A stretch of DNA of 64,000 bases from contig NZ_LT615367.1 in assembly GCF_900095885.1 (NCBI RefSeq), forward strand, positions 3,596,001 to 3,660,000, written 5' to 3'. This document shows, one piece after another, positions 1 to 14,430 of this stretch (position 1 is its first letter; each line of letters starts with the position of its first letter). A model generated the notes under the pieces. The model saw nothing but the letters and a program-made list of their open reading frames with translations, did not search any database and was not told the DNA's origin. Position numbers and translations under genes: made by a program. Source of the DNA: Dickeya aquatica. Lineage in GTDB: Bacteria; Pseudomonadota; Gammaproteobacteria; Enterobacterales; Enterobacteriaceae.

Positions 1-181
1 TTATGTCTGGTGGTTCAAACCCCAGTTCACCTTTCCCGTCGCCATGCTCTCGTGCCTGATTCTGATGCGCCACCACGATAATATCCAGCGCCTCTGGCGC
101 GGTCAGGAAAGCAAGGTGTGGAAGAAATTACGCCGCTCATCCTCCTCACCGGATGACGCGCCCCATCAGGACAATCACTGA
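1..181 (+). CDS. plsY: Glycerol-3-phosphate acyltransferase PlsY, 3' end only
   Basis: The open frame from base 2 to the TGA at 179-181 encodes about 59 residues containing [14 protein letters not shown] followed by a basic tail. This matches the C-terminal end of enterobacterial PlsY, the inner-membrane enzyme that transfers acyl groups from acyl-phosphate to glycerol-3-phosphate at the first step of phospholipid synthesis. The start and the membrane segments lie outside the window, so only the terminal helix and cytoplasmic tail are seen. The call rests on recognising this conserved tail. Confidence 0.82.
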
Positions 182-211
182 ATCCTGAGCCCAGCACTGC
201 GATGTTGCGTC

Positions 212-242
212 GCTTTAGCGCCGCGTCATCGGGCGCTAAAGC
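212..242 (+). terminator. Hairpin downstream of plsY
   Basis: GCTTTAGCGCC at 212-222 pairs perfectly with GGCGCTAAAGC at 232-242 across a 9-base loop, 30 bases after the plsY stop. No T-run follows, so it may stabilise the 3' end or act as a weak terminator between convergent genes. A short direct repeat (TAATACCA, C or G, TGCATT) lies just beyond it, around 277-310. Confidence 0.5.
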
Positions 243-313
243 CGGGTGACGTTCAGACCACCGCCATCACCCTTGTATTAATACCACTGCATTTTAATAC
301 CAGTGCATTATCA

Positions 314-1906
314 TCACTTTAATAGCGCCTGAGCGAAGTTTGCCGTCTGCGGGGACAGTCGGAATTGCGCCATGCTGGCCGCCAGTTCATGAGCCTGTTC
401 CTCCAGTGAGCGGGTGGCAGCGGCGGATTGTTCCACCAGTGAGGCATTTTGCTGAGCAACGGCGTCCATTTGCGAAACCGCCTGATTCACCTGCTCAATC
501 CCGTTACTCTGTTCACGGGTCGCCCCTGAGATTTCGCGCATCAGCGTCGTCACCCGCGCCACGGCCGAGGAGACATCGTTCATGGTTTCTCCCGCCACAC
601 GGGCAATTTCCGCCCCTTCATTCACCTGTGTTTGCGAGTCTTGCATCAACGCTTTGATCTCTTTAGCCGACTCGGCGCTACGCTGCGCCAGATTACGCAC
701 CTCTCCGGCGACAACGGCAAAACCACGCCCTTGCTCCCCGGCGCGAGCCGCTTCCACTGCCGCATTGAGTGCCAGAATATTGGTCTGAAAAGCAATCCCG
801 TCAATCATGGTCAGAATGTCAGCGACCCGCGCGGCCGTAGCCGAGATCATCTGCATTTTTTCCAGCATCTGATTTGATGCCTCGCTGCCTTTATCGGCAA
901 TGTCCGATACCTGTTTGGCCAGCAGATAAGCCTGATCGGCATTATCCGCATTTAATTTTACCGTCGAAGCCAGTTGCTCCATGCTGGACGCCGTTTGCTC
1001 CAGCGAGGCTGCCGACTCCTCAGTACGCTCGGCCAAATGGCTGTTGCCAGACGCCAGCTCACGAGTACCCACATCAATCTGCCCGCCGGCATCCCGCACT
1101 CGCCCGACCGCAACCGATAATGATGCTTGCATCAGCCTCATGGCCTGAATCAGACGACCAATTTCATTGTGACGTCCCTCCTCGATTTGGCCGGACAAGT
1201 CACCCTGAGCAATGATTTCAAGATGCTGCACTGCACCATCCAGCGGCCGTAATACCCACTGGCGAATCGCCCACCAGGCTAATACCGCCAGCAATATCGA
1301 GATACACAACGCACTTCCGATGCCCAATAACCGGCTGGATGCCAGCGTATCAGCCTGTTGCAACAGGTTTTCCCCGACTTGCAGCGCATAGTCACGAAAA
1401 TCGTTAATGGCGGTATCCATCGCCAGTGTCAACGCCGGCAGGGTATCTTGCATTAACGTGTAGTAATCATCGAGATCATCATTGCGTAATGCCGTTAACA
1501 GAGGCTGTACCCCCTGGCGATCGTAAGCCTCGTAGGCAACCTTAATATGTTCAGCCAGCTCTGCTCCGCGTTGCGTTACCGTGCCATAGGCCAAAAACCG
1601 CGTCATCTCGCGGCGAGAAGCCTCGGTATATTGCGCGACCTGCCCGGTGCTCTCGCGTGCCTTGTCAATCAGGCCTACCTCATGCAAGCGAACCGCCTGT
1701 GCCGCCGCTATTCTGGCCCGCAGCGTGGCGGTATAGCTCGCCGACAGCGCACTAAGTTCCTTGCCCTGAATTTTGTCTACCGACTGTAATGAGCGATTTC
1801 CCTGACTAATCGCACTTGTCCCTATTCCAGCCACCACTGCCAACAACACCAGCATCATTGCAAGCAATGCCAACAACCCTTGCTTGACCGTAATACGCTT
1901 TAGCAT
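314..1906 (-). CDS. Methyl-accepting chemotaxis protein (four-helix-bundle sensor type)
   Basis: Inner-membrane chemoreceptor of 530 residues that would signal through CheW/CheA. The ATG at 1904-1906 is chosen because AAGGGAG precedes it; an upstream in-frame start has no comparable site. TM1 is at about residues 10-30, followed by a mostly helical periplasmic domain of about 160 residues (Tar/Tsr-like four-helix bundle), TM2 at about 190-210, HAMP, and a cytoplasmic hairpin with a methylation region ([12 protein letters not shown]) and the invariant tip [20 protein letters not shown]. The C-terminus ends in AQALLK, so the NWETF tether for CheR/CheB is absent. It resembles the chemoreceptor at 34671-36251 in layout and sequence and is probably its paralogue. 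The ligand cannot be predicted. Confidence 0.93.
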
Positions 1907-2029
1907 CCGTACTCTCCCTTTGTGATACAAAATCATAAAAAATAAAAATAATTTCCTGTGCCACTCATCCGGCTAAAGCCATTCCCCCACAACCGGATTT
2001 TGCCAGATGAGACGATTCGGAATCAGAGA

Positions 2030-2057
2030 TTATCGGAATGCTGGCAGCATTTCTTTA
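2030..2057 (-). promoter_or_regulatory. Candidate flagellar sigma-28 promoter for the chemoreceptor
   Basis: Read on the minus strand, TAAAG is followed, with 16 bases between TAAA and the -10, by TCCGATAA (consensus TAAA-N15-GCCGATAA). It has one mismatch in the -10 box and a spacer one base longer than ideal. It lies about 125 bp upstream of the chemoreceptor start, and class-3 flagellar control is usual for such genes. Confidence 0.45.
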
Positions 2058-2216
2058 GCTTAATTAATTATTTACATATTACTAATTAGCAAGGTGTTCA
2101 TTTTTCACCCTTCTGCCTGCCGGGAGGCACGAGTAGCCTAAAAACTCACGACTTTCGCCATCAGTTGGCTATAATGACCGCCACTCCATTCTGGTTTGAA
2201 GAAGAAGGAAACCGAC

Positions 2217-2744
2217 ATGAGTTTGAATACCGTACCGGCGGGCAAAGACCTCCCGGAAGACATTTATGTAGTTATCGAAATCCCGGCTAATTCTGATCCC
2301 ATCAAATATGAAGTGGACAAAGAAACCGGCGCGCTGTTTGTAGACCGTTTCATGTCTACCGCGATGTTCTATCCGTGCAACTACGGCTATATCAATAACA
2401 CCTTGTCACTGGATGGTGATCCGGTTGACGTGCTGGTGCCGACGCCGTATCCGTTGCAGCCGGGTTCTGTGATCCGCTGCCGTCCGGTTGGCGTGCTGAA
2501 AATGACTGATGAGTCTGGCGAAGATGCGAAAGTGGTTGCCGTGCCGCACACCAAACTGAGCAAAGAATACGACCACATCAAAGACGTTAACGATCTGCCG
2601 GAACTGCTGCGAGCGCAGATAGGCCATTTCTTTGAGCACTACAAAGATCTGGAAAAAGGCAAGTGGGTAAAAGTGGAAGGCTGGGCGGATGCCGACGCCG
2701 CAAAAGCGGAAATTCTGGCCTCTTTCGAGCGCGCCAAAAAATAA
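2217..2744 (+). CDS. ppa: Inorganic pyrophosphatase
   Basis: Soluble family I pyrophosphatase of 175 residues (E. coli 176) that hydrolyses PPi to two phosphates and so pulls biosynthetic reactions forward. The start at 2217 follows GAAGAAGGAAACC; the frame is open seven codons further upstream without a ribosome site. Visible signatures are CNYGYINNT and [10 protein letters not shown], whose aspartates bind Mg2+, and [15 protein letters not shown] near the C-terminus. In E. coli ppa is also close to ytfP, tamB and tamA; here a four-gene accessory operon separates them. A strong hairpin follows the gene. Confidence 0.98.
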
Positions 2745-2797
2745 AGCCGCCACGACAGCGGACGTATCGCCTTCACTGTGACGGTGGCCGCGATACA

Positions 2798-2831
2798 AAC
2801 AACAACACCGCCACAGGCGGTGTTGTTGTTT
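2798..2831. terminator. Terminator between ppa and the accessory operon
   Basis: A 15-bp stem (AACAACAACACCGCC at 2798-2812, complement at 2816-2830) with a 3-base loop lies between the convergent ppa and SnoaL-like genes. Its T-rich distal arm favours termination of ppa, and its symmetry could also stop minus-strand transcripts. Confidence 0.75.
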
Positions 2832-2861
2832 TCAGGGATGTTAGGCTAACCTGCCCGTGTT

Positions 2862-3284
2862 TCACTCCTCTTCAAACGCAGGTCGCCACGAACTGCCAAC
2901 ACCAAACTCCGCTTCATAAGCCGGTCGTGCCGTTACCGTGTCGTAAATGATGTGCAATTTTTCAATCAACCCGGCGCTATTCATTTCCAGCACATCGACA
3001 CACTCAAAATGCGCAGGCTCACCCGACGGCAACGTCCACTTGAATTTAAACCAGATGGTTATCAGCGGTCGGCCATCAACCTGTGAACCTTTAGTCACAC
3101 CTTTCAGGTTAATTTTCGCGCGCCCGGTGTCTTTAAATAACGCAGTATAAAAATCAACCGCTTTTCTCGGGCCATACAGCGGTGAGAACACCACGCCATC
3201 GGGCGTATAGAGATCGAGAATGGCGCGAAGATCGCTCTTCTCCAGTGATTCAAGGTAAGTTTTAGCAATTTGATCCGGTGTCAT
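2862..3284 (-). CDS. SnoaL/NTF2-like protein, last gene of the accessory operon
   Basis: A 140-residue protein with a SnoaL-type (ketosteroid-isomerase/NTF2) cone fold: an N-terminal helical segment (TPDQIAKTYLESLEKSD), a YTPDGVVFSPLYG strand-loop, and C-terminal strands ending in IEKLHIIYDT. Members of this fold are isomerases, cyclases, hydratases or binding proteins, so the reaction cannot be named. Its ATG overlaps the TAA of the PheS-like gene (TAATG) and AGGAGG lies just upstream inside that gene, so the two are translationally coupled. This implies a shared pathway. It may process a small product or bind an intermediate. Confidence 0.8.
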   Translation of the reverse strand: MTPDQIAKTYLESLEKSDLRAILDLYTPDGVVFSPLYGPRKAVDFYTALFKDTGRAKINLKGVTKGSQVDGRPLITIWFKFKWTLPSGEPAHFECVDVLEMNSAGLIEKLHIIYDTVTARPAYEAEFGVGSSWRPAFEEE

Positions 3285-4765
3285 TATTTTTCCTCCTGAA
3301 GCGTGATATCCATTGTAATTTCACAGGCTGCCAGCGGCTCGGATAGCTGCCATGCAGACAAAACATGGGGGGCCAGTTGCCCGGCGTGGCCAATAATATC
3401 GCCCGCGTCAGTGACCAGCGCAGTGACGCCTGATGTGGCCCAGGGAAGCGGCTCATCTTCCCGGCAATGCACCGTCACACCTTGTGCAGCCAGTGCTGCC
3501 TGCACCGCTGTCAGCAACTGCCCGCCGTCCCGGCCCAAGGCTGCCAGATGAAACGGCTGGCGGGGAATCGCCGAATACAGTTGTGCCAGTTGTTCGTCAG
3601 ACGGCGCAGAGCCCGTGGCGATGGCCGGTGCCGCAGACAACAGGCCCGGCAAGAACACCCGCGCACGTTCAAAAATACCGTTACTGTGAGCGGGTAAGGC
3701 CGCGCTCTGTTGCTGCCAGAGGTTCAATAGCCCCGGCAACAGCAACGGACGCAGCACCGGTGCCATGCCCGCTATCGGGTTGCGTAGCTGCCAGTAATTT
3801 GGTGCGTTGCTTTGCGATGACGCAGGTAGCAGAGGAGCCAGTTCCTGAACGGATGTAAAAGGAAAAGTAGAAACCTGCACCAGCCCCTGCGAGGCCAATG
3901 TCCACTCCGTCAGGCTATCACCGCGGCTTGCAAACGCGGTTTCCACCCCGGCATGACTCAGTGCCGCCGCGTGGCTGTGGGCATAAGTCACATCACCATT
4001 TACGATCGGTTGTAAATCCTGCAAGCCGTCTCGCAGCATCAATGTACGCTCCACACCGATACCAAATGAGAAGGCGCGAAACTCATCCGGGTTCACCCCA
4101 CAGTTGATAAGTACATTCGGGTGAACCATGCCGCAACCGCCCCATTCAATCCAGCCTTCTCCCTGACAGGTCGGGCACGTTGTTGATTGCCCGTGGCACT
4201 GGTTACACTGAATGTCGATCTCTGCCGCTGGCTGGGCATAAGCAAACTCGTAAGGCCGCAATCGCGTCACCAGATCTTGCCCAAACAACGCATGCGCCAG
4301 TTCATCCAGCAGTTGCTTGAGATTATCCATCGTCAGATGGCGGTCTACCGCCAGCCCTTCCAGTTGATTGAAAACCGGGCTATGCGTGGCATCCAGCGCA
4401 TCAGGGCGATAGGTTCGCCCGATATGAAAGCGGTATAACGGCGGTGCTTGCGTGAGCAAGGTGCGCGCCTGTACCGGTGAGGTATGAGCCCGCAGCACCA
4501 GCCCGGAGCGCGGCCCGGGCGAGTCGGGCGGCGTTAACGAATCAGGCCGTTTCGCGCCAACCTGAGCCAGATAAAAAGTATTGTCCGGGGCACGGGCAAA
4601 ATGGTCATCCGCCATATTCAGCACATCAAAATTGAACCATTCAGCTTCAATTTCTGGCCCTTCCATCGGGGTATAGCCACGCGCCTGAAAAAACCCGGCG
4701 ATGTGTTGCCTGAGCAGCGTCAGCGGATGCAATGAACCGAGCGCAGGCTGGCAACAGGATGTCAT
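3284..4765 (-). CDS. Stand-alone PheS-PheT catalytic-core fusion (aminoacyl-tRNA-synthetase-like ligase)
   Basis: A 493-residue class II synthetase paralogue. Residues 12-260 are a PheS catalytic domain: GPEIEAEWFNFDVLN (36-50), HTSPVQART (94-102), motif 2 IGRTYRPD (115-122), FNQLEG (132-137), GCGMVHPNVL (210-219) and motif 3 FGIGVER (234-240). ATP- and amino-acid-binding residues look intact. A Cys4 knuckle (C187, C190, C197, C200) is inserted before GCGMVHPN, as I recall from Bacillus-type PheS but not E. coli PheS. Residues ~275-490 resemble the PheT core. The PheS coiled coil and the PheT editing, B5 and anticodon-binding domains are missing, so ordinary tRNA charging is unlikely. I infer activation of an amino acid for a small-molecule product. 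The start overlaps the preceding stop (ATGA). Confidence 0.87.
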   Translation of the reverse strand: MTSCCQPALGSLHPLTLLRQHIAGFFQARGYTPMEGPEIEAEWFNFDVLNMADDHFARAPDNTFYLAQVGAKRPDSLTPPDSPGPRSGLVLRAHTSPVQARTLLTQAPPLYRFHIGRTYRPDALDATHSPVFNQLEGLAVDRHLTMDNLKQLLDELAHALFGQDLVTRLRPYEFAYAQPAAEIDIQCNQCHGQSTTCPTCQGEGWIEWGGCGMVHPNVLINCGVNPDEFRAFSFGIGVERTLMLRDGLQDLQPIVNGDVTYAHSHAAALSHAGVETAFASRGDSLTEWTLASQGLVQVSTFPFTSVQELAPLLPASSQSNAPNYWQLRNPIAGMAPVLRPLLLPGLLNLWQQQSAALPAHSNGIFERARVFLPGLLSAAPAIATGSAPSDEQLAQLYSAIPRQPFHLAALGRDGGQLLTAVQAALAAQGVTVHCREDEPLPWATSGVTALVTDAGDIIGHAGQLAPHVLSAWQLSEPLAACEITMDITLQEEK

Positions 4766-5823
4766 GATGAAGCACCTTGTAATGTCCAGGCGGCAATACG
4801 CTCATGTACCAGATCCATCATGTCCCATGCCTGACGGCACAGTGGCAGCAGAGACTGTATTTTTTCAGCCGGCAGGCTATGCAAATACCCCTGGCCGATG
4901 GCACGGTGGTCATCATCGGCCTCCGCGTGAACATCAAAATAGTCACCTTCGACTTCTGGCTTGTGGAAGATCTCTGAGGTTGCCAGGCCAAACACATGAC
5001 CGCTCGACTCCACCACCAGATGCACAATCACCAGTTTTCCGGCTTCATCTTGCTGGTACATCTGAGAAACAAACCAGTTGCCTGCCGCTTCCAGAATCGG
5101 ATCGTACACCGTCTCGTTAATCTGATAACGTACCCGCAATAACTCATCATGCCCCACTTCTTCCATGAAATGACGCTGATACTCCTCCTGCAATGCCGGC
5201 GTCACACACAGCGCCTGACGCGCTAACACCATTTTCTGGAAATAGCATGACCATACATATAAGGCAGAAACAAAACGCTGGCGTAATTTCGCATCTTTTT
5301 GCAACCGACCGGAAGAGAATAATTTAAACAGTGCATTTTGCTGGTGACGCCCTAACAGGGTTTCATTCACCTGATGCAGGCTATTTAATGCATCACTGAA
5401 GGTGACTCTTGCCTGAGTTTCATCTTCATATAATCCTTTACCTTCAAACTGAATGGACAAGCCATGAAAGGTTTCACCTTCTCGTGTGGTAAAACCGTGA
5501 TTTTGAAATGGCTCGACACAGACAATATCTCCTTCATATAACTGACGCGGGCTGTCACCGGTTAATTGTACTGAACCACTCGTAACAATAATCATCGACT
5601 TTGTCGGATGCTGGTGCACATCCAGTGTTTCACCCTCTCTTAAACGCACCCAGGCAAATGACAGCCGACCATTCTCTGGAATAAAACGCGCCAGGTTTTC
5701 ATCCCGACGAAAATCTCGATGCTGCCCCAGCAAATGGGTTTCACCATTCACTTCGACATGGGTAATCGCACGAATTTGTTCACGCGCAATCACATTCACA
5801 ACCGCTTGCTGTTCCTTATTCAT
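4762..5823 (-). CDS. Cupin fused to a haem-oxygenase-like di-iron oxidase (HDO)
   Basis: A 353-residue two-domain metalloenzyme. The ATG at 5821-5823 is chosen because AAGGAG lies 9 bases upstream; 41 in-frame codons further up look like leader. Residues ~50-130 are a cupin with H70, H72 and H109 as likely ligands; the usual cupin Glu position is Ser/Met. Residues ~150-345 form an HDO/TenA-like helical bundle with E222-x2-H225, E272 and H299-x3-D303-x2-H306, fitting the HDO ligand pattern. HDOs such as SznF, UndA and BesC use O2 for N-oxygenation or C-C cleavage. SznF also combines HDO and cupin but in the opposite order. Coupling to the PheS-like gene suggests oxidation of an amino-acid-derived substrate. 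The exact reaction is unknown. Confidence 0.83.
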   Translation of the reverse strand: MNKEQQAVVNVIAREQIRAITHVEVNGETHLLGQHRDFRRDENLARFIPENGRLSFAWVRLREGETLDVHQHPTKSMIIVTSGSVQLTGDSPRQLYEGDIVCVEPFQNHGFTTREGETFHGLSIQFEGKGLYEDETQARVTFSDALNSLHQVNETLLGRHQQNALFKLFSSGRLQKDAKLRQRFVSALYVWSCYFQKMVLARQALCVTPALQEEYQRHFMEEVGHDELLRVRYQINETVYDPILEAAGNWFVSQMYQQDEAGKLVIVHLVVESSGHVFGLATSEIFHKPEVEGDYFDVHAEADDDHRAIGQGYLHSLPAEKIQSLLPLCRQAWDMMDLVHERIAAWTLQGASS

Positions 5824-6004
5824 TTCCAACGACTCCTTGTAATTCACATCTATTATATTTAACGCTATTGACGAGGCCGACCAGGCCCATAAAAACCATT
5901 CGCATAACTTTATAAGAAAACCTAAAAGCTTTCCGAAGATGCTCAAACATTATTTTGAATCGACACACTCACTATAATAATTTCATCTCCGTATTTTTAA
6001 CACC

Positions 6005-7042
6005 CTATTTATTACGCAACACGCCGATGAGATCATCCATCACATTAGCGGCTGCCAGTGAAATACGAATATATCCCACAAGCCCCATTGGATTTGGCAA
6101 AACATCAAATCCGGCATTGAGTAAACGGGTGGCAAAAGACTCAGGGGCTTTGATCGTGATAAACCCGGCATTGGAAAACACTTTTTCTATTTCGGGAATA
6201 TGTCGCAGCAGTTGCGCTACGCGTTCACGCTCCTGAATGAAGAGCGAAATCTGTTGCTTTAATTGTGTGGTATTTGACAGCGCCGCTTGCGCCTGCTCGA
6301 TAACCGGCTGTGGCAGCGCAAACGGGAGCCTCACCTTCATCATCGCGCGAATAAGCTCCGGCTGGGCCAGCACGGCACCTAGACGCAAGCCCGCAAGCGC
6401 CATACCTTTCGACAAAGAACGCACGACGATTAATTGTGGATAATCATGAATAAGATGACGAAATGAGCGCCGGGAGGCATATTCAACATAGGCTTCATCC
6501 ACCACGACCAGCCCGGAGAAATTTTCCAGAATATCCATCACCTCATCAACCTTCAGGCTACTGCCAATCGGGTTATTCGGGTCGCAGAGGAATAGGCCTT
6601 TTGCCTGGCTTGCCTTTATTTTTTCGACATTCAGGTGGTTAAAATTACTGCCTAAAAGAGGGATCGGCTCCAGTCGAACAGAATAAACCGTAGCGAGCTC
6701 ATCAAATAAGCGAAAATTAGGTGGCGTGACAATAACACTGTCTTTAGCCGGTTCAAAGAAGGCGCGAAAAATTAAATCCAGCCCATCTGAAGCTCCGCGT
6801 GTCATGAGCACCATATCCTGATGCCACTCCCGGCTATCATCATGGCCCTCTATCTCATTCAGGGCGTTAAGATAACACCCCGCAAGCGATGGATAGACAT
6901 TCGGAGGGTAACGATTTTGCTGGCCGCCAAAGGGATTTTCGTTATCGCGGAGGTTAATCATCCCTCGTTCCTCCGAGCGGGAGGAAAAACTGAAGGCGGG
7001 CGTCATATTATTGACTACATCCCTGATTAATAATTTTTTCAT
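6005..7042 (-). CDS. HisC-like PLP-dependent aminotransferase, first gene of the accessory operon
   Basis: A 345-residue fold-type I aminotransferase of the histidinol-phosphate aminotransferase-like group. The ATG at 7040-7042 is chosen over one two codons earlier because AAGGA is then correctly spaced. Visible motifs are TRGASDGLDLIFRAF (cofactor phosphate site), DPNNPIG, VVVDEAY (Asp to the PLP ring), SLSKG with the Schiff-base lysine at about K212, GLRLG, and RISLA with the carboxylate-binding arginine. This is probably not the histidine-pathway enzyme, as no his genes are near. It would make or use an amino/keto acid for the coupled synthetase-like and oxidase genes 181 bp downstream. 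Its bases are visibly more AT-rich than those of neighbouring core genes, hinting at transfer. Confidence 0.85.
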   Translation of the reverse strand: MKKLLIRDVVNNMTPAFSFSSRSEERGMINLRDNENPFGGQQNRYPPNVYPSLAGCYLNALNEIEGHDDSREWHQDMVLMTRGASDGLDLIFRAFFEPAKDSVIVTPPNFRLFDELATVYSVRLEPIPLLGSNFNHLNVEKIKASQAKGLFLCDPNNPIGSSLKVDEVMDILENFSGLVVVDEAYVEYASRRSFRHLIHDYPQLIVVRSLSKGMALAGLRLGAVLAQPELIRAMMKVRLPFALPQPVIEQAQAALSNTTQLKQQISLFIQERERVAQLLRHIPEIEKVFSNAGFITIKAPESFATRLLNAGFDVLPNPMGLVGYIRISLAAANVMDDLIGVLRNK

Positions 7043-7504
7043 TTTCATCCTTGTGCAAACAGAGCATAAAATGGCCTATCATGCTTTCTTTTTACACTTA
7101 TTGCATTTTAATATTAAACTTATTTCCTGCTACCATAAGTAGTGGCAGCCAACAAGGAAAAGTATTTAATATGAAAAGCAGAAAAGCATAAATCCAGGTA
7201 ACAGGCCTGCATTCTTCCCTGACCATAAATGGTGTTATCAAAAAACTGGCAGACAAACCCAAGCCAGAATGAAAAAATAAAAAGACACAGCATGACTGTT
7301 AATAATTTTCATTATTGAATCAAAATTACCACACTGTCAAGTATCATAAAAAACAAAACACACATAAAAATTAACAACAAAAAATTTCTTCAAGAACAAA
7401 AGATAGAATTAAAAAATATCAACAACATTTCTTTACACGAAAAAGAATAATAAAGAAATAAACCTATGGAAATAGGCAATAGTAAAACAGCCAGTGACTA
7501 TTTA
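7043..7504. other. AT-rich leader region upstream of the accessory operon
   Basis: About 460 bp with no credible gene. It is strikingly AT-rich, with long A-tracts around 7320-7450, unlike the GC-rich flanks. It should contain the promoter of the aminotransferase-HDO-PheS-like-SnoaL operon; a TTTAATATTAAA dyad lies about 70 bp upstream of the aminotransferase start. Such AT-rich DNA is a typical H-NS target and a common mark of acquired genes. Binding by H-NS is inference. Confidence 0.55.
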
Positions 7505-7547
7505 GTTAAAAAATTAATCCCGGTTACTGCTATCAGCAACCGGGATT
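7505..7547 (-). terminator. Terminator of the tamA-tamB-ytfP operon
   Basis: Read on the minus strand, AATCCCGGTT pairs with AACCGGGATT (7516-7525 with 7538-7547) around an imperfectly paired loop, followed by TAATTTTTT. It is a convincing intrinsic terminator 26 bp after the ytfP stop and marks the boundary between core genes and the accessory operon. Confidence 0.85.
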
Positions 7548-7572
7548 ATTTAGGGTGTGGCGTAATGTGAGG

Positions 7573-7926
7573 CTATGGCTCTTCGTGACGCTTTAACCAG
7601 TCTCCGCTGGTAATGCGACGCAGGCCAGTGACCGGGCGTTGGTACAGGTAAATCCAGGCACTGCCATAAGGTGTTGCAATCAGCTCACGCTTATAAGCCC
7701 CTACACTGCCTTCTCGCTTCAATTCATCCAATTCCGCCAGAATCGATGAACTGATCCGATAGATCTCGCAGTGAATCTCTCCTTCGCCTGCTACTGCCGC
7801 AGGGTAGTGGCCCAAATCATACAGCTCATAGCCTTCAAGCTGATGGTCCCCTAACCACTGGGCATTGGTCATCCAATGACTGTTTCCCTGTTTGCGCCGT
7901 AAACTGCCGTAGACAATAACTCGCAT
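7573..7926 (-). CDS. ytfP: YtfP, gamma-glutamylcyclotransferase-fold protein
   Basis: A 117-residue cytoplasmic protein of the gamma-glutamylcyclotransferase/BtrG-like superfamily. It has the characteristic N-terminal MRVIVYGSLRRKQGN (YGSL substrate loop), a LGHYPAAVAGEG strand and the conserved acidic ELDELKREG. The family cyclises gamma-glutamyl amines to 5-oxoproline, but the physiological substrate of YtfP is not established. It starts two bases after the tamB stop and is the last gene of the tamA-tamB-ytfP operon, the same order as in E. coli. Confidence 0.93.
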   Translation of the reverse strand: MRVIVYGSLRRKQGNSHWMTNAQWLGDHQLEGYELYDLGHYPAAVAGEGEIHCEIYRISSSILAELDELKREGSVGAYKRELIATPYGSAWIYLYQRPVTGLRRITSGDWLKRHEEP

Positions 7927-7928
7927 GG

Positions 7929-10900
7929 CTAAAACTCGAACTGATAGAGCACATCGAGCGCCTGGCTCACGCCAGACACCGCTTCCAGGTATAGTTTCGG
8001 CATTAAACGGTAACGTAAGGTTAGCGTTGCCAGTGAATCAAACAGGCCAACCCCGTATTTGACCTGTAGGCCCGGTAGAACGTAGCCGCTGACGACAACC
8101 TGTGATTTATCGCCAACACCCTGTGTATCCAGAGCTAAATTGCTTACGCCAAAGGCCTCGCCGATTTTACCCACAACTTGACCACTTTGTGCAACCCCCA
8201 AACCAATCAGCGCTGATGTCATCATCGCACTGTCCGTCCCCGTGCTGTTCAACCCTTGCCCGCGTAACAGATACGATAACGCTTCTTGCTGCGACAATGT
8301 GGGCTCGGAGAAGACCTCCAGTTTCGGCGTGGCCGCCGGGCCGGTAATTCTGACGCCAACCGTGACACTATCGGCGGTGTTATCCGGGTTACGGATGGCT
8401 TCAATATTGAGCACCGGCTGAGTGGGTGGCCCGGCAAACAGCAGTTGGCCTTTGCGCACCTGTAAATCTTGCCCATAGGCTTTAAAACGTCCTTCAGGCA
8501 TAACAATTTGCCCATTCAGGCCAAGCCCCTGAGTATCCTGCGTGACGTTCAGGTCGCCTCGTAACCGCGCCCGCAGGCCATACGCATCCAGCCAGACATC
8601 CTCTCCCACCCGCACAATCAGATTGCTGACAATCGGGATTGATGCCCCCGCCGTTGTGGCAGGCCGATGTTGTGCATCCAGCATCACCTCATCATCCGAT
8701 ACCGCCACGGTGCTCTGCGGCATCTCATGCACCACGATGCGTGCCCAGGGGATAGTCACGGTTCCATTGAGCGCCAATAACTGTGGGGAGGCGTCAAACA
8801 CAATGTCTGGAGACACATCCAGTCTTGCCATCGGCGGCACCGTCACGCGCATCCGCTCCCCCTTCACCGCCAGACGCGCCCGCCACGCCTGCGGCTGCGA
8901 CCAGTCGGCATTGCCCGCCAGATTGATTTGCCCCTGTGCGCTCGCCAGTACACCTTGCAGTGAAGAGGACATGCCGTTGAAGATAAACGTCAGTTGTCCC
9001 TGGTTTAAATCGACCGGAATGACATTGCTCTGCGCTGACAGCCCCGTCAGCGCCAGTTGGCCAAATACCTGCGGATGCGCCACACTGCCACCAAAGCGCA
9101 GGTCAGCATTCATCATGCCATTGGCATTTTCATTCTGGCGCAGCATCGGTTTTAGCAACGCCAGCGACACGTCGTTAATCGACAGGGTGCCGCCAAGCGC
9201 CCGCCGTTGCTGTGGGTCGGTTATCTGAATATCGCCCCGGATACGGCCATTCCCTTCAATGCCCGCCAGCCATGCCAGCCGCGCCTGCCCACGTTGCAAC
9301 GCGGCATCCAGCGTCAGGGTGTTGAATGTTACCGGCAGCGCTGCGCCACCTTGTAGCGCCTGACGCACACTCACGCCGCTGCCATTAAGCTTCAACCGGG
9401 CATCCGGCAGGCCGTCGCCGGGCTGCCAGCTCACCTGTGCGTTGCCGGTAATGTTGCCGCTCACCGCCGTCTGTGGGCTGATAAACGGCTTGAGTATCGA
9501 CAGGTTAAAGCGGTTAAGCGCCAACGTGGCCTTGCCGCTGGCTCCGGCTGCTATCGGCTGCGGCACACACAGTTCAGCCTCAGGATGACGCCAGCAATGC
9601 GCCCCCAGCGTCAACACCTGAGTGGTCGCCTGATAGGCCAGTGCCAGAGAAGGCACCAGCCGCCACTCACCAACCGGCGTATTAAAACGGGTATCGGTGA
9701 GCTCGCCTTGCCAGCGTTGTCTGGCCCGGTCAACATGGCCGTTCAATAACCACTGCCCGCTCAATGGCTCACCTTTTATCATCACCCGTAGCTGATGCTG
9801 ATTCTCATCTCCCGTGGCCCGCAGGCTCACAGAGGCCAGCCGCCATTCATCCTGCGTCAGTTGCTGCACCTGCAAGGCCAGCGAACCACGTACCTGCTGG
9901 CCTGTCTGTACATCGCCAGTAAGCGTTAGCTGCCCAATGCGCAGTTGCTGCCAGCGTAAACCGCTGGCATCCAGGCTGGTTTGCAAATGGGGTTGCTCGC
10001 GCGAGCCTGAAATACGCACGTTACCGGTTATCTTCCCGGCAAGCTCTGGCAGCAGGCCATTGAGTGACGGGGCATTGAGCTGCCCATCCAGCTGCCACTG
10101 TTCGCCCACACGGCCTTGTAGCGAGAGTTGATTGCGCCCTAGAGCCACCACAACGCCCGGTATCGACCACTGGCCACTGTCATCTCCGCTAAGAGTCCCT
10201 TTCACCGCCACCCGGTTCTGCCGCACCTGTCCATCCAGATTTAACTGCGGGATATCCAGTTGCCAGTGGGTGGCCGACAGGCTACCGCGTGTACTCAATG
10301 AACCGTCCAGCCGTACTGGCCATTGCGGCCATTGTTGCGCGCTGTTAATACCGCTAAGCGCCAATTCGGTACGCCAGTGCAGCGCATCAGGCCAGGCCAG
10401 TTCTCCGCTGATGTTTGCCGTGCCTTGCAGCGCCGCCAGTTGCAGTTGCCTGAAGGTAAATTGTTGTTCGCTGCCGTTGCCATCTAGCGTCAGCGTTGCC
10501 GGGGGCAATGCTTGTCCGGCGATGTCGGTGCGTAACGAGAGCGCATAGTCGGTCGCCCGGCCACCCAACGTGAGTTGCAGTTGTTTGAACTGATATAACG
10601 CCTCACCGGTGAGCGGCCAGCGCAACTGTGGGCTACTCAGGTTGATAGCCAATGGCAACCCGGCCTCGGCCAGTGAGGTTTCAATGCTCAGTTGCGCTGA
10701 CTGCGGGCCGGATAAATTCATCATGACCTGCAATTGCTGACGCAGGCTGCCTGCGGCCGTCAGCCGAATCCGTTCACCGCTGAGTACCTCATCACTGACG
10801 ATGACATTGGCCGTTAACGTGAGCGGCCAGTCATCGGTAAAGCTCATCTCGCCCTGCGCAGAGAGTGTGCCTTGTGGCAACACCACCCTTAATTGCTGTA

Positions 10901-11678
10901 ATACCAGCGCCTGTTTTCGCGTCTGAGCCTGTAGCTGAACGTTCGATATCCGCAGCGGTTGTTCGCCCTGAATTCGCCAGTCTTCACCGCGAAAATCATC
11001 AATGGTGAGATCCAAAGGCAGTGAAAACGCAGGCATGGCCGGTAGCAACGGAGTGGCAAACAGGGCGCGTAACCGCTCGCCCAAGGCAACGGCCGCCTCA
11101 GCAGGGGGACGCGCAGGCGCAGACGATGCGGGCGGCACAGTGAGCTCAAGCCCGGTCAATTGCGTGGGCAGTAACGTCAATGCTCTCCCCTGCCAGTTCA
11201 CCCCGGTTTGCAGCGTGCCAAGGGTGATTGCGGTGCCATCAATCACTATCTGGCTGTCGCTCAGGCGAAGATGGCGCAGTGCTATCGCAACCGGTGCACG
11301 GCCGTCACTCTCGGTTGGCGAGGAGGCGGCTTCGGCAGCCGCAGGCGTCTGTTGGCTGCTGTCCACCCGCACACGCAGGCGTTGTAATGACACCTCATCC
11401 AGACACACCTGGCTGTGCCACAGACAGGACGGTTGCACTGCCAGATGCAGCGCCTGCACCTCTACGCTGACGCCGGTTGTCTGATAACGGATGTCTTGTA
11501 ACGTCAGCGCAGTTAAGTCCCCCTCTACCTGTTCAATGGTTAACCCCGGCACCCAGCGTGTGGCCGTCGTGAGCAGCAGATGCAGCCCCGTCGCCGTGCT
11601 TATCAGCCACGCCAGCAAGAGCAACACCGTCAGTAATAACAGCGTCAGGCCAATACCGGCTTGTTTTATTTTGCTCAT
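7929..11678 (-). CDS. tamB: Translocation and assembly module subunit TamB
   Basis: A 1249-residue inner-membrane-anchored AsmA-like protein that bridges the periplasm to TamA and is implicated in autotransporter assembly and anterograde phospholipid transport. One N-terminal transmembrane helix (about residues 8-28) is followed by a long repetitive beta-rich region forming the hydrophobic groove. The DUF490/TamB domain occupies roughly the last 350 residues, ending in [23 protein letters not shown] outer-membrane-associated strands. Length is close to E. coli TamB (1259). Its ATG overlaps the TGA of tamA. Several long open frames on the opposite strand are codon-bias shadows. Confidence 0.97.
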
Positions 11679-13432
11679 AGCTCCGGCCCCAGCCCGATAT
11701 AAAATTGCACGCCGTGTCTGTCGCTATCGCCAACAGGCCGGGCGATATCGAATTTTACCGGGCCAACCGGCGAGGCCCAGCGCACGCCGATACCCGCGCC
11801 TGTTTTAACATGGGTTTGCGTCAGATCATTAATGGCTTCACCGCTGTCAACAAAGACCGCGCCCCACCATTTGCCGCTCAGGTTGTACTGATATTCGAGC
11901 GATCCGGTGGCAAGCTTCGTCGCCCCGGTCAGTTTGCCGTCACTGTCACGCGGGGAGATGGATTTGTATTTATAGCCGCGAATGCTGCGATCGCCCCCGG
12001 CAAAAAAGCGCAATGACGGCGGCACGCGGGAGAAACGGCTGGTTTCAATCCAGCCCAGATTGGCACGCGCCACAACGCGGTGTTTTTCCGCCACGGTACG
12101 CACCCAGGCGTGTTGCGCCTGAAATACCGCAAAATCGATATCCGAGCCCCACAGCGTATTCGATACATCGACCGAATAACGCTGGGTATCGCCCCACTCC
12201 GGCATCAACCCGCCACGCTGGCGGGTACGGTTGAGGCTCACACCGGGATAAAGCAGCATCGTGGTATGGGTGACATTGGCCTGAGTAAAGTGATCCAACG
12301 TCCAGCGCAGCTTCAGCGCCCGCTGCCACCCACTGGAAAGCTCCCAGTAGCGGGCAAGATTTAAGGAGGTGGAATCGGATTGGGTGTCGTTGAGATCTTC
12401 ACGCTTGAATCCGCCCTGCACCAGATAGTAGTGCTCCAGCGGGTTTTTCAGCAGCGGGATCTTGTAACTCCAGTCGAGCTGTTGCTCCGGTGCCGACAGG
12501 CTCAGACTGCTGCTCAGGCTGTGGCCATAGCTGTTCACCCAAGGCTTGTTCCAGGTGGTTTTCAGGCGAGGCCCGACATCGGTCGCGTACCCCACACCGG
12601 TTTCGACACTGTTACGGGTTCGCGGCGTTAACACCGCATCCAACGCCAGCCGATGGCTCTGACGCCCGGCGGCCAAATCTGGCGCAACCACCACCGAATT
12701 AAACCAGCCAGTGGCAGACAAACGCCGGTTAAGCTCCCCCAGGCGCTCCGAAGAATAGGCGTCGCCCTCCTTAAATGGCACCAGATTTTGCAAATAGTCG
12801 GGGCGAATTTGGCTACCCTGAAACACCACGTTACCGAAATGGTAACGCTCACCGCTGTCGTAATCGATATCCCACCAGGCCTGCCGGGTGGACTGCATGA
12901 CGGTTAAACGGTGCTGATTGAAGCGGCCATCAAAATACCCTTTACGCATAGACAGCGTATTGAGTTCGGTTTTGAAATCCTCGTAATTGCCGTGGTTCAA
13001 CACGCCACCCACCACCGGACGATGCATTCTCAGCAGCCGCTGGTAGTCATCATCCTGCTGAGCCTGCCCACGTAACGCGATGCGGGCACCGGCTATTTTT
13101 ACCGGCTCGCCGGGGCTAACCGTGACTTTCAGCACCGGGCGACCACGCCCCTCTGCGGGAATAAACTCAAAATCGATGGACGGGTCATAGTAGCCCAGCG
13201 CGCGAAGCCCCTGACGAATCGACTCATCGACGCGGGCGCGAAAGCGGTTATCGGCGTTAACTTCATCCGGTGTGATGGTTGAGAGCCGGGCCCGCACATT
13301 TTTTTGCAGCTCGCCCTCAAGCCCCATGAGCTGTAAACGTACCGTTGCCGCCCCCACCGCGGGAGACAACAACAGCCATAGCAGTACAAACGACGCTCGC
13401 CAGTACACCTTGTGATGCCGTAACTCTCGCAT
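11675..13432 (-). CDS. tamA: Translocation and assembly module subunit TamA
   Basis: Omp85-family outer-membrane protein. With the ATG at 13430-13432 it is 585 residues (E. coli 577) and begins with a normal signal peptide ending at about AVGA-A. Three POTRA domains follow ([17 protein letters not shown] begins the first), then a 16-strand beta-barrel with the [13 protein letters not shown] lid-loop motif, ending in the barrel strand FYIGLGPEL. An alternative GTG at 13496-13498 has a better ribosome site (AGGAAG) and would add 22 residues before the signal peptide, so the start is uncertain. TamA partners TamB, the next gene. The shared 5' region with msrA carries a tandem-repeat array. Confidence 0.95.
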
Positions 13433-13629
13433 CAGGTGATACGTGCCGTGAGATACGTTGCCAAAGACGTGGTTTTTTATTCTGATGAAAACGCTCACTT
13501 AACTTCCTGGTAGTGTCAGCAGAATTGACGTGATTTCGTGTCAACAACAGACAAGTCTCTCTGTTACTTTGTTAACTATAGATAGCCATCCTCATACAGA
13601 CAACGCCGTCGCTGCCATACACCGGTCAT

Positions 13630-13713
13630 ATTGCCGTGTTATTGCACTCTATAGCCGTGCTCTTGCACTATGTTGCCGTGTTATTGCACCATGCTGCTGT
13701 GCTATTGCACCAC
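13630..13713. repeat. Four in-phase 21-bp tandem repeats with internal dyads
   Basis: Four 21-bp units at 13630-13650, 13651-13671, 13672-13692 and 13693-13713 share the core GCCGTG-T-ATTGCAC with substitutions. Units 2 and 4 contain a perfect dyad GTGC-N4-GCAC; units 1 and 3 have one mismatch (GTGT-N4-GCAC). The 21-bp period is two helical turns, so all dyads face the same side. They lie between divergent tamA and msrA. I infer an operator array for an unidentified dimeric regulator. Confidence 0.75.
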
Positions 13714-13782
13714 AAAGACCGTTCACATTAACTCGGTTATGCTCTGAAAACGTCAGTTCAGGGTGAAATTCAGGAGCCAAAC

Positions 13783-14430
13783 GTGATAACCAATGTCGAT
13801 AAAACACAGCAGATAAGCCAGGCCGATGCCCTACCCGGCCGTACCACACCGATGCCGGTCGCACGGCTACACGCGGTCAGTCAACATTCAATGACCCATG
13901 TCCCCCAGCATATGGACGTTGCTTTCTTTGCCATGGGCTGTTTTTGGGGGGTGGAGCGTTTGTTCTGGCAACAGCCCGGCATCTATAGCACTGCCAGCGG
14001 ATACTGCGGAGGTTATACGCCAAACCCCACCTATCGAGAGGTATGCAGCGGTAAAACCGGCCATGCCGAAGCCGTGCGGGTGGTATTTGACCCTGCGGTT
14101 ATCGGCTATTCACAGCTGTTACAGCTCTTCTGGGAGCACCATGACCCGGCGCAGGGGATGCGTCAGGGCAATGATATCGGCACCCAATATCGTTCAGCGA
14201 TTTATGTCGTCGATGCGCAGCAAGACGCCGCGGCCAAAGAGAGTTACCAGCGCTTTCAGCAAGCGATGCGTGCAGCCGGTGATGCACGGGCCATTACCAC
14301 CGAAATCGCCCCGGCCGGGCCGTTTTACTACGCCGAAGATGAACACCAGCAATACCTGCATAAGAACCCACATGGCTACTGTGGTCTTGGTGGAATTGGT
14401 GTTTGCCTGCCACCACAGGGGGAATTCTGA
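13783..14430 (+). CDS. msrA: Peptide methionine-(S)-sulfoxide reductase MsrA
   Basis: A 215-residue cytoplasmic repair enzyme that reduces methionine-S-sulfoxide in proteins using thioredoxin. The GTG start at 13783 follows AGGAG with 6-base spacing. The catalytic [10 protein letters not shown] motif holds the nucleophilic cysteine at about residue 53, and the resolving cysteines lie in the C-terminal [10 protein letters not shown] segment. Length equals the E. coli enzyme class (212), with the same extended N-terminus. It is divergent from tamA as in E. coli. An intrinsic terminator follows at 14497. Confidence 0.97.

Follow-up and report, generated by a model that had tools for sequence, protein, structure and literature searches.

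A four-gene Dickeya cassette pairing a cupin-oxygenase fusion with a PheRS-derived protein: a proposed mobile pathway for an oxidised amino-acid derivative

What could be made by four adjacent genes that combine an aminotransferase (AT), a cupin fused to a heme-oxygenase-like di-metal domain (HDO), a protein derived from phenylalanyl-tRNA synthetase (PheRS) and a small SnoaL-like protein? The genes lie in a 64,000-nucleotide stretch of Dickeya aquatica (contig NZ_LT615367.1, positions 3,596,001 to 3,660,000; hereafter the window), whose genome (G000) is one contig of 4.5 Mb. The favoured answer, given a probability of about 0.6, is a mobile cassette for the biosynthesis of a small oxidised derivative of an amino acid, probably an aromatic (Phe/Tyr-like) one. 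It builds on what could be read from sequence, namely the gene set and its conservation, the metal ligands, the apparent absence of known tRNA modules, a changed substrate pocket and the swap of one enzyme for another.

A gene set that recurs in two phyla

The four open reading frames (ORFs) all run on the minus strand in the ORF list of the window. The ORFs, domain searches and predicted HDO fold confirmed the operon composition that an earlier sequence-only reading had given:

6005-7048, minus strand: AT, an aminotransferase of fold type I in a subfamily neighbouring HisC but distinct from it; 347 amino acids (PF00155, TIGR01141, tree split; the earlier end at 7042 corresponds to a Met at codon 3)
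4762-5823, minus strand: cupin-HDO protein; 353 amino acids from its ATG, cupin at about residues 50-125 and heme-oxygenase-like di-metal domain at about 143-352 (the longest ORF begins at a TTG, 5946)
3284-4765, minus strand: PheST, a PheS catalytic core fused to a PheT catalytic-like module; 493 amino acids (PF01409 and PF17759 only)
3980-4741, minus strand: PheS-type class II core of PheST, with a Cys4 zinc-ribbon-like insert (domain search, alignments)
3314-3907, minus strand: PheT catalytic-like module (CLM) of PheST (PF17759, residues 287-484)
2862-3284, minus strand: SnoaL/NTF2-fold protein; 140 amino acids (PF12680, 34.5 bits, cut-off 27)

The last three genes overlap, as had been noted before: the cupin-HDO stop and PheST start share 4 nucleotides (ATGA), and the PheST stop and SnoaL start share 1 nucleotide (TAATG). 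A gap of about 180 bp, measured from the cupin-HDO ATG, separates AT from cupin-HDO.

The earlier claim that the four genes belong together held up in a co-occurrence search, in which they recurred as a set instead of being scattered. Identical order was found in all ten loci with the complete set that were read at length (the window, L001, L109, L110, L103, L127, L128, L130, L163 and L164), which span two phyla and differing genomic sites; this was read as more than chance. Of 58 relative genomes, nine belong to the window's genus; four of these nine, and none of the rest, had cupin-HDO. The full four-gene set was present in G001 and G006 (L109 and L110) and in Dickeya oryzae (L001); G002 also contained all four genes, with identities equal to those of L001, and the two may be one genome. 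In the window, the cassette is flanked by ytfP (7573-7926) on one side and by ppa (2217-2744, plus strand) on the other, with SnoaL and ppa convergent. In five of five Dickeya genomes without the set (G003, G004, G005, G007 and G008) ytfP and ppa were adjacent, with 89 to 259 bp between match ends.

Outside the genus, a family-wide search gave a cupin-HDO match in 3 of 392 genomes: the window's own, G502 and G650. G502 (Samsonia erythrinae; the names given for the Samsonia and Streptosporangiaceae genomes are inferred) contained all four genes at another site, with no ytfP or tamB within 20 kb, and its proteins were identical to those of the window at 59% (AT), 74% (cupin-HDO), 50% (PheST) and 84% (SnoaL). 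At the level of the window's class, 5 of 369 genomes matched including its own; three of the others matched in the HDO part only, and G375 matched with AT and cupin-HDO.

Within Streptosporangiaceae, the family of G1131, cupin-HDO was found in 6 of 200 genomes and, in one genus, in 4 of 16 genomes; two genomes were common to both searches, giving eight in total. In five of these eight (L127, L128, L130, L163 and L164) AT is followed by cupin-HDO, then PheST, then SnoaL; two contained AT and cupin-HDO with a pyridoxal-phosphate (PLP) decarboxylase (L125 and L126), and one contained cupin-HDO alone (L129). Start sites of these GC-rich actinobacterial genes are uncertain. The L129 protein (L129:9372-10781) lacks two of the metal ligands (A replaces E222 and Y replaces H299), and no AT was found in the 14 kb fetched, where the contig ends 3.6 kb downstream; this is apparently a decaying gene. 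Since Dickeya, Samsonia and five Streptosporangiaceae genomes share the four genes and their order, the set appears from its distribution to be a horizontally mobile unit that crosses phyla. One protein search had suggested that PheST was confined to Dickeya, yet that search missed even the Samsonia gene, and the idea was rejected once genome searches found PheST in Streptosporangiaceae.

A protein search with cupin-HDO returned 106 clusters, including Streptosporangium, Streptomyces, Nonomuraea, Microtetraspora, Nocardia, Vitiosangium, Pedobacter, Acinetobacter, Shewanella, Burkholderia and Caballeronia. A search with the AT alignment returned 2321 proteins, of which the best 120 were used. 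Co-occurrence was judged by longest contigs of exactly equal size between clusters. By this measure, among the first 64 cupin-HDO clusters, 32 paired with an AT cluster, always within the first 63 of the best 120 AT rows, and 32 had no AT partner; none of the lower 42 of the 106 cupin-HDO rows paired with an AT cluster among the best 120. AT and cupin-HDO, judged from these pairings and neighbourhoods, appear to be the core of the system. The neighbourhoods read lie outside the other large branch of AT proteins, that of Acinetobacter, Enterobacter ludwigii, Caballeronia and Pedobacter, and outside Vitiosangium.

Several more distant or partial loci were also observed. In G650, of the window's family, a distant cupin-HDO (35% identity) is found without the other three genes nearby; it is followed by a malate/lactate-dehydrogenase-like protein, a 743-amino-acid protein without a Pfam match and a major facilitator superfamily transporter (L104:9187-14732), a candidate for another pathway. 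On a gammaproteobacterial contig (L108:7381-9547), cupin and HDO are split between two overlapping frames, and after them comes an AT that runs into an N-filled gap, with the gene order reversed relative to the cassette and phage-like genes further out. The plasmid search gave one distant record, from Embleya (L114:8835-13023), in which cupin-HDO (33%) neighbours an aldehyde dehydrogenase (ALDH)-MaoC fusion (PaaZ-like) and an alcohol dehydrogenase. The order of G786 had matches in 2 of 293 genomes, HDO part only, and its class in 1 of 394, the HDO part of G816. A 557-amino-acid metagenomic protein (P0071) has a partial FAD-binding domain ahead of its cupin. Nothing useful was found in viral contigs or a viral fold library. 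Directly upstream of AT, an EF-hand protein is encoded at four loci (L125:6427-6990, L126:11661-12281, L128:7632-8240 and L130:11560-12141), hinting at calcium-linked control; the L126 protein used as query had no match in L127, L163 or L164.

PheST and its decarboxylase-like replacement

PheST contains tRNA-synt_2d (PF01409, residues 9-262, E 4e-73) and tRNA_synthFbeta (PF17759, the PheT CLM, residues 287-484, E 3e-18), and the Pfam search gave no further domain above cut-off, neither an anticodon-binding-like nor an editing domain. Residue 9 aligns with residue 106 of Mycobacterium tuberculosis PheS, so that the N-terminal tRNA-binding arm of PheS is absent. Against TIGR00468, PheST scored 204.7 bits and the L130 homologue 214, both under the cut-off of 237.45. 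A separate canonical PheS was found in all eight PheST-bearing genomes searched (G000, G001, G002, G006, G502, where it is in two pieces, G1507, G1477 and G1540; G1597 and G1599 were outside that search). The stand-alone PheS/PheT core lacking tRNA-binding domains, which the sequence-only reading had described, is borne out by these domains and by the separate PheS genes. An ordinary PheRS duplicate was rejected on the same two grounds, and with this predicted anatomy PheST cannot be a normal PheRS. The zinc-ribbon insert was rejected as a PheST speciality, as canonical actinobacterial PheS carry one too.

In a 37-row tree, the eight PheST rows formed one clade (support 100/100, stem 0.69) among canonical actinobacterial PheS. 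The sole non-actinobacterial canonical row was Dickeya's own PheS, on a long branch, which calls for caution in that long branches meet; in the alignments, motifs served to trim the cores and two of the canonical PheS rows. The window PheST shares 51-56% of its residues with the PheS cores of actinobacteria and 43% with Dickeya's own PheS. PheST likely originated from an actinobacterial PheRS, in a tree that is not rooted with certainty. A contig scan with PheST returned mostly canonical actinobacterial PheS, and among the best 80 loci only L001 carries the cassette.

The residues of HTS, the motif 2 Arg, Q-x-E and the E-R of motif 3 were kept in ten of ten PheST sequences. In the pocket, FPF was changed to F[A/S]Y: A/S175 and Y176 occurred in all ten PheST, and P and F in all ten canonical PheS. 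Further positions with non-overlapping residues in these ten and ten sequences include P121 in motif 2 (canonical T/S/N) and S129 (T/M). The first Ala of the F-A-F-G stretch is Ser in Dickeya PheST and is kept in Samsonia and the actinobacteria. By analogy with the Thermus enzyme, we take the FPF stretch to line the Phe side-chain pocket, and HTS, Q-x-E and the motif 2 Arg presumably bind the amino-acid head and ATP. With the head and ATP residues kept and the side-chain pocket changed, PheST likely still forms an aminoacyl-adenylate of a different amino acid, most likely another one of aromatic type that is perhaps more polar. The predicted structure model of PheST was poor and was not used. 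PheST also matched the NCBIfam model 'PheS-related mystery ligase SrmL' (PheS-derived), with 82 bits for the window and 113.7 for L130:7641-9188 (cut-off 300); no relevant publication under the SrmL name was found among the best-ranked part of the literature results.

The two decarboxylase-bearing loci, L125 and L126, define a second form of the cassette (type II, as opposed to the four-gene type I), in which AT and cupin-HDO are kept, and a tyrosine-decarboxylase-like PLP enzyme stands in place of PheST and SnoaL. Against the TIGR03811 tyrosine decarboxylase model, the L126 protein scored 319.5 bits (E 4e-95) and the L125 protein 269.9 bits (E 4e-80; ORF start uncertain). The cut-off of 905.3 bits is far above both scores, and the type II partner is best described as a predicted relative of tyrosine decarboxylase, not an established equivalog. 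No PheST or SnoaL was found in the 15 and 20 kb fetched around L125 and L126, and these genomes show canonical PheS and PheT only. In the AT tree, type II rows fell within a larger group that also held type I rows on several branches, with modest support for the deep forks. Because the type II rows are nested among type I branches, type I is probably the older form in that AT group. The swapped step would be the carboxylate step, carried out by PheST (with SnoaL) in type I and by the decarboxylase-like enzyme in type II.

Partner enzymes and flanking signals

The cupin of the cupin-HDO protein was annotated directly (Cupin_2, E 6.4e-7), and Haem_oxygenas_2 was sub-threshold (E 0.0044, 17.3 bits, cut-off 28.9); assignment of the HDO rests on the predicted fold and conserved metal ligands. 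These ligands, E222, H225, E272, H299, D303 and H306, were present in 106-107 of 107 homologues and form a 3-His/3-carboxylate set. Cupin histidines H70, H72 and H109 were each present in 106 of the 107. The cupin is N-terminal to the HDO. The predicted HDO structure was nearest to AetD and CADD, at 10-16% identity. The E-x2-H of its first ligand helix is shared with MboA; AetD has D-x2-H there. No Asp or Glu occurred at residues 194-203 in the 107 homologues, a stretch where the position of the extra SznF carboxylate was inferred from spacing alone; nearby acids were found at residue 193 in 11 of 107 (none of the top 65) and at residue 186 in 47 of 107.

AT matched Aminotran_1_2 (PF00155, E 1.4e-40) and scored 220.2 bits against TIGR01141, under the cut-off of 276.55. 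The AT group (first 63 of the best 120 rows) split from five HisC rows with support of 100/100. The PLP lysine region (SLSKGMALAGLR) is retained. The HisC-typical Arg column, presumably the column that contacts the substrate phosphate near the HisC C-terminus (E. coli R322), held R in 56 of 58 HisC-side rows (57 HisC and one HisD) and is L317 in the window AT; the four commonest letters in the 63 AT rows were V (30), L (19), A (8) and T (3). Identity with HisC was rejected on the TIGR01141 score and the missing Arg column. Phe at positions 98, 112, 115 and 243 was found in 61-63 of 63 rows, where HisC has Cys or Tyr, and in the alignment Phe appears to line several substrate-side columns.

The SnoaL-like protein matched SnoaL_2 (PF12680, E 3.3e-8), with only weak PDB sequence matches (MonB and ketosteroid isomerases). 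The window protein was 61-97% identical to eight others in two phyla (L110 left out). Between Dickeya and actinobacteria it was the most conserved of the four proteins at four of five loci (62-64%, versus 50-63% for cupin-HDO), and it was also the most conserved versus Samsonia (84%). This highest conservation of the four argues for a catalytic role rather than a loose accessory one.

Three putative signals flank the operon:

2797-2831, no strand assigned: perfect 16-pair hairpin between SnoaL and ppa (minus-strand fold -31.5 kcal/mol, z -4.4)
7515-7548, minus strand: terminator-like hairpin after ytfP, a 15-pair stem then a T-run, setting ytfP apart from the operon
7311-7340, minus strand: promoter-like site 5' of AT, TTGACA-18-AATAAT, 11/12 match

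The hairpin at 2797-2831 has no entry in the consensus terminator scan and is followed by a T-run on the plus strand only (the ppa side); a two-way terminator is possible. Given the hairpins at 7515-7548 and 2797-2831, the four genes may form their own transcription unit. The region was not enriched in promoter-like sites (5 versus 6.1 in shuffles) or terminator-like sites (6 versus 6.1), and the promoter-like match upstream of AT is suggestive only. The stretch 7001-7500 upstream of the operon is AT-rich, with 30% GC versus about 50-60% on the ytfP-tamB side. An Rfam scan of window positions 1-14000 found no RNA family.

Proposed pathway, its rivals and known systems

From these genes we infer the substrates, order, chemistry and product as follows. 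AT would interconvert a 2-keto acid and its amino acid, and the HDO domain, with O2 and its 3-His/3-carboxylate di-metal site, would oxidise the free amino acid; the 3-His cupin fused to it may finish or isomerise the product. The amino acid so formed, or a partner of it, would next have its carboxylate activated by PheST, as an aminoacyl-adenylate and with no tRNA involved. PheST would then hand the acyl group to a small nucleophile or let it cyclise, a last step that the SnoaL-like protein may catalyse or steer, perhaps by cyclisation or hydration. In type II, the tyrosine-decarboxylase-like enzyme would fill the carboxylate slot. The PheS-type core, the tyrosine-decarboxylase-like partner, the Phe-rich AT pocket and the AetD/CADD-like fold, each a weak clue alone, point the same way, to an aromatic-type substrate.

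The sequence-only reading had proposed an N-oxidised or N-N bonded product. Here the cupin-HDO would N-hydroxylate and the cupin rearrange, as in SznF, or PheST and the cupin would join a hydroxylamine and an amino acid, as in hydrazine synthetases. An HDO and a 3-His cupin do share one protein, as in SznF (H407/H409/H448, according to parts of PMC11705231), and an amino-acid-activating core stands in the same operon, as in cupin/MetRS (methionyl-tRNA synthetase) systems. Against this, the cupin is on the opposite side of the HDO, the core helix has E-x2-H, residues 194-203, the stretch that spacing suggests for the extra SznF carboxylate, lack an acid, the activating core is of PheS and not MetRS type, the operon has no separate N-hydroxylase gene, and type II clusters keep AT and cupin-HDO yet carry a decarboxylase, not an activating enzyme. 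In favour of N-oxygenation, HrmI, a 3-His/3-carboxylate HDO, is an N-oxygenase according to the parts of PMC13108848 consulted. An N-N bond in the product is conceivable but is not the preferred reading, and the proposal as a whole is unlikely. An operon for the catabolism or detoxification of a compound resembling an aromatic amino acid is somewhat more doubtful: aminotransferases, oxygenases and cupins occur in catabolism too, and the Embleya cupin-HDO neighbours dehydrogenases, but an ATP-spending amino-acid-activating core would be unusual there, the operon has no uptake gene, and its distribution is sporadic.

The two remaining explanations concern PheST itself. It could charge tRNA with a non-standard amino acid for a later enzyme, given that the class II core keeps its motif 2 and 3 residues and that mitochondrial PheRS works as one chain. 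The missing N-terminal arm, the lack of any anticodon-binding-like or editing domain in the search and the absence of a tRNA-using transferase from the operon make this tRNA-dependent route improbable. Biosynthetic clusters are known to carry spare synthetases for self-resistance, and PheST could likewise serve as a decoy or a spare PheRS that protects against a product aimed at PheRS, or as an amino-acid sensor. A spare PheRS must charge tRNA, which the PheST anatomy does not support, and the tight coupling to SnoaL and the decarboxylase swap suggest a metabolic step, leaving self-protection or regulation very improbable.

Returning to the biosynthetic cassette, a more far-reaching version is held tentatively: PheRS catalytic halves may have been fused once, stripped of their tRNA modules and turned into a free-standing activator of an oxidised aromatic amino acid supplied by a cupin-first HDO, interchangeable with a decarboxylase, in a natural-product pathway that crosses phyla. 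To our knowledge, no PheRS has been recruited into small-molecule biosynthesis. A literature search (the best-ranked part of some result sets, mostly non-subscription papers) gave no publication recognised as describing this gene set and no characterised cupin-first HDO; PMC13061610 and PMC10849742 contributed nothing decisive. With only four genes, a single tube or a single E. coli strain could be enough to reconstitute the complete pathway, and the natural type I and type II variants are a built-in control for the role of the activating step. In Dickeya, a genus of plant pathogens, the cassette marks an unexplored metabolite.

SznF/StzF of the streptozotocin pathway, like GrbD and ChmM, also has an HDO and a 3-His cupin in one polypeptide, and the His-x3-Asp-x2-His motif is common to both systems (H311/D315/H318 in SznF; H299/D303/H306 here). 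In SznF the cupin is C-terminal, core helix 1 has E215-x9-H225, and E189 in auxiliary helix 2 supplies an extra carboxylate (3-His/4-carboxylate); here the domain order is reversed, the helix has E-x2-H, and the expected position, placed by spacing, has no acid. Arginine-pathway genes were not seen in the operon. Hydrazine synthetases likewise bring a cupin and an activating domain derived from an aminoacyl-tRNA synthetase into one pathway, but their MetRS-like domain is fused to the cupin and they use an N-hydroxylated substrate, whereas here a separate class II PheS and PheT-CLM protein is found, an HDO is added, and the operon has no lysine N-hydroxylase. The AetD nitrile synthase acts on Trp and CADD on an internal Tyr, and the matched chains have no fused cupin. 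The mangotoxin mbo operon is also small and combines an HDO (MboA E86, H89, E143, H172, D176 and H181) with amino-acid ligases; those ligases are ATP-grasp enzymes, whereas here the ligase is PheRS-derived, AT and cupin are present, and no mboB-like redox partner gene was recognised. In bacilysin biosynthesis, the cupin BacB, the aminotransferase BacF and the ligase BacD make and cap a Phe/Tyr-like amino acid. The apparent likeness to the present cassette is one of logic: a prephenate decarboxylase and an ATP-grasp ligase are absent here, and an HDO and a SnoaL-like protein are added.

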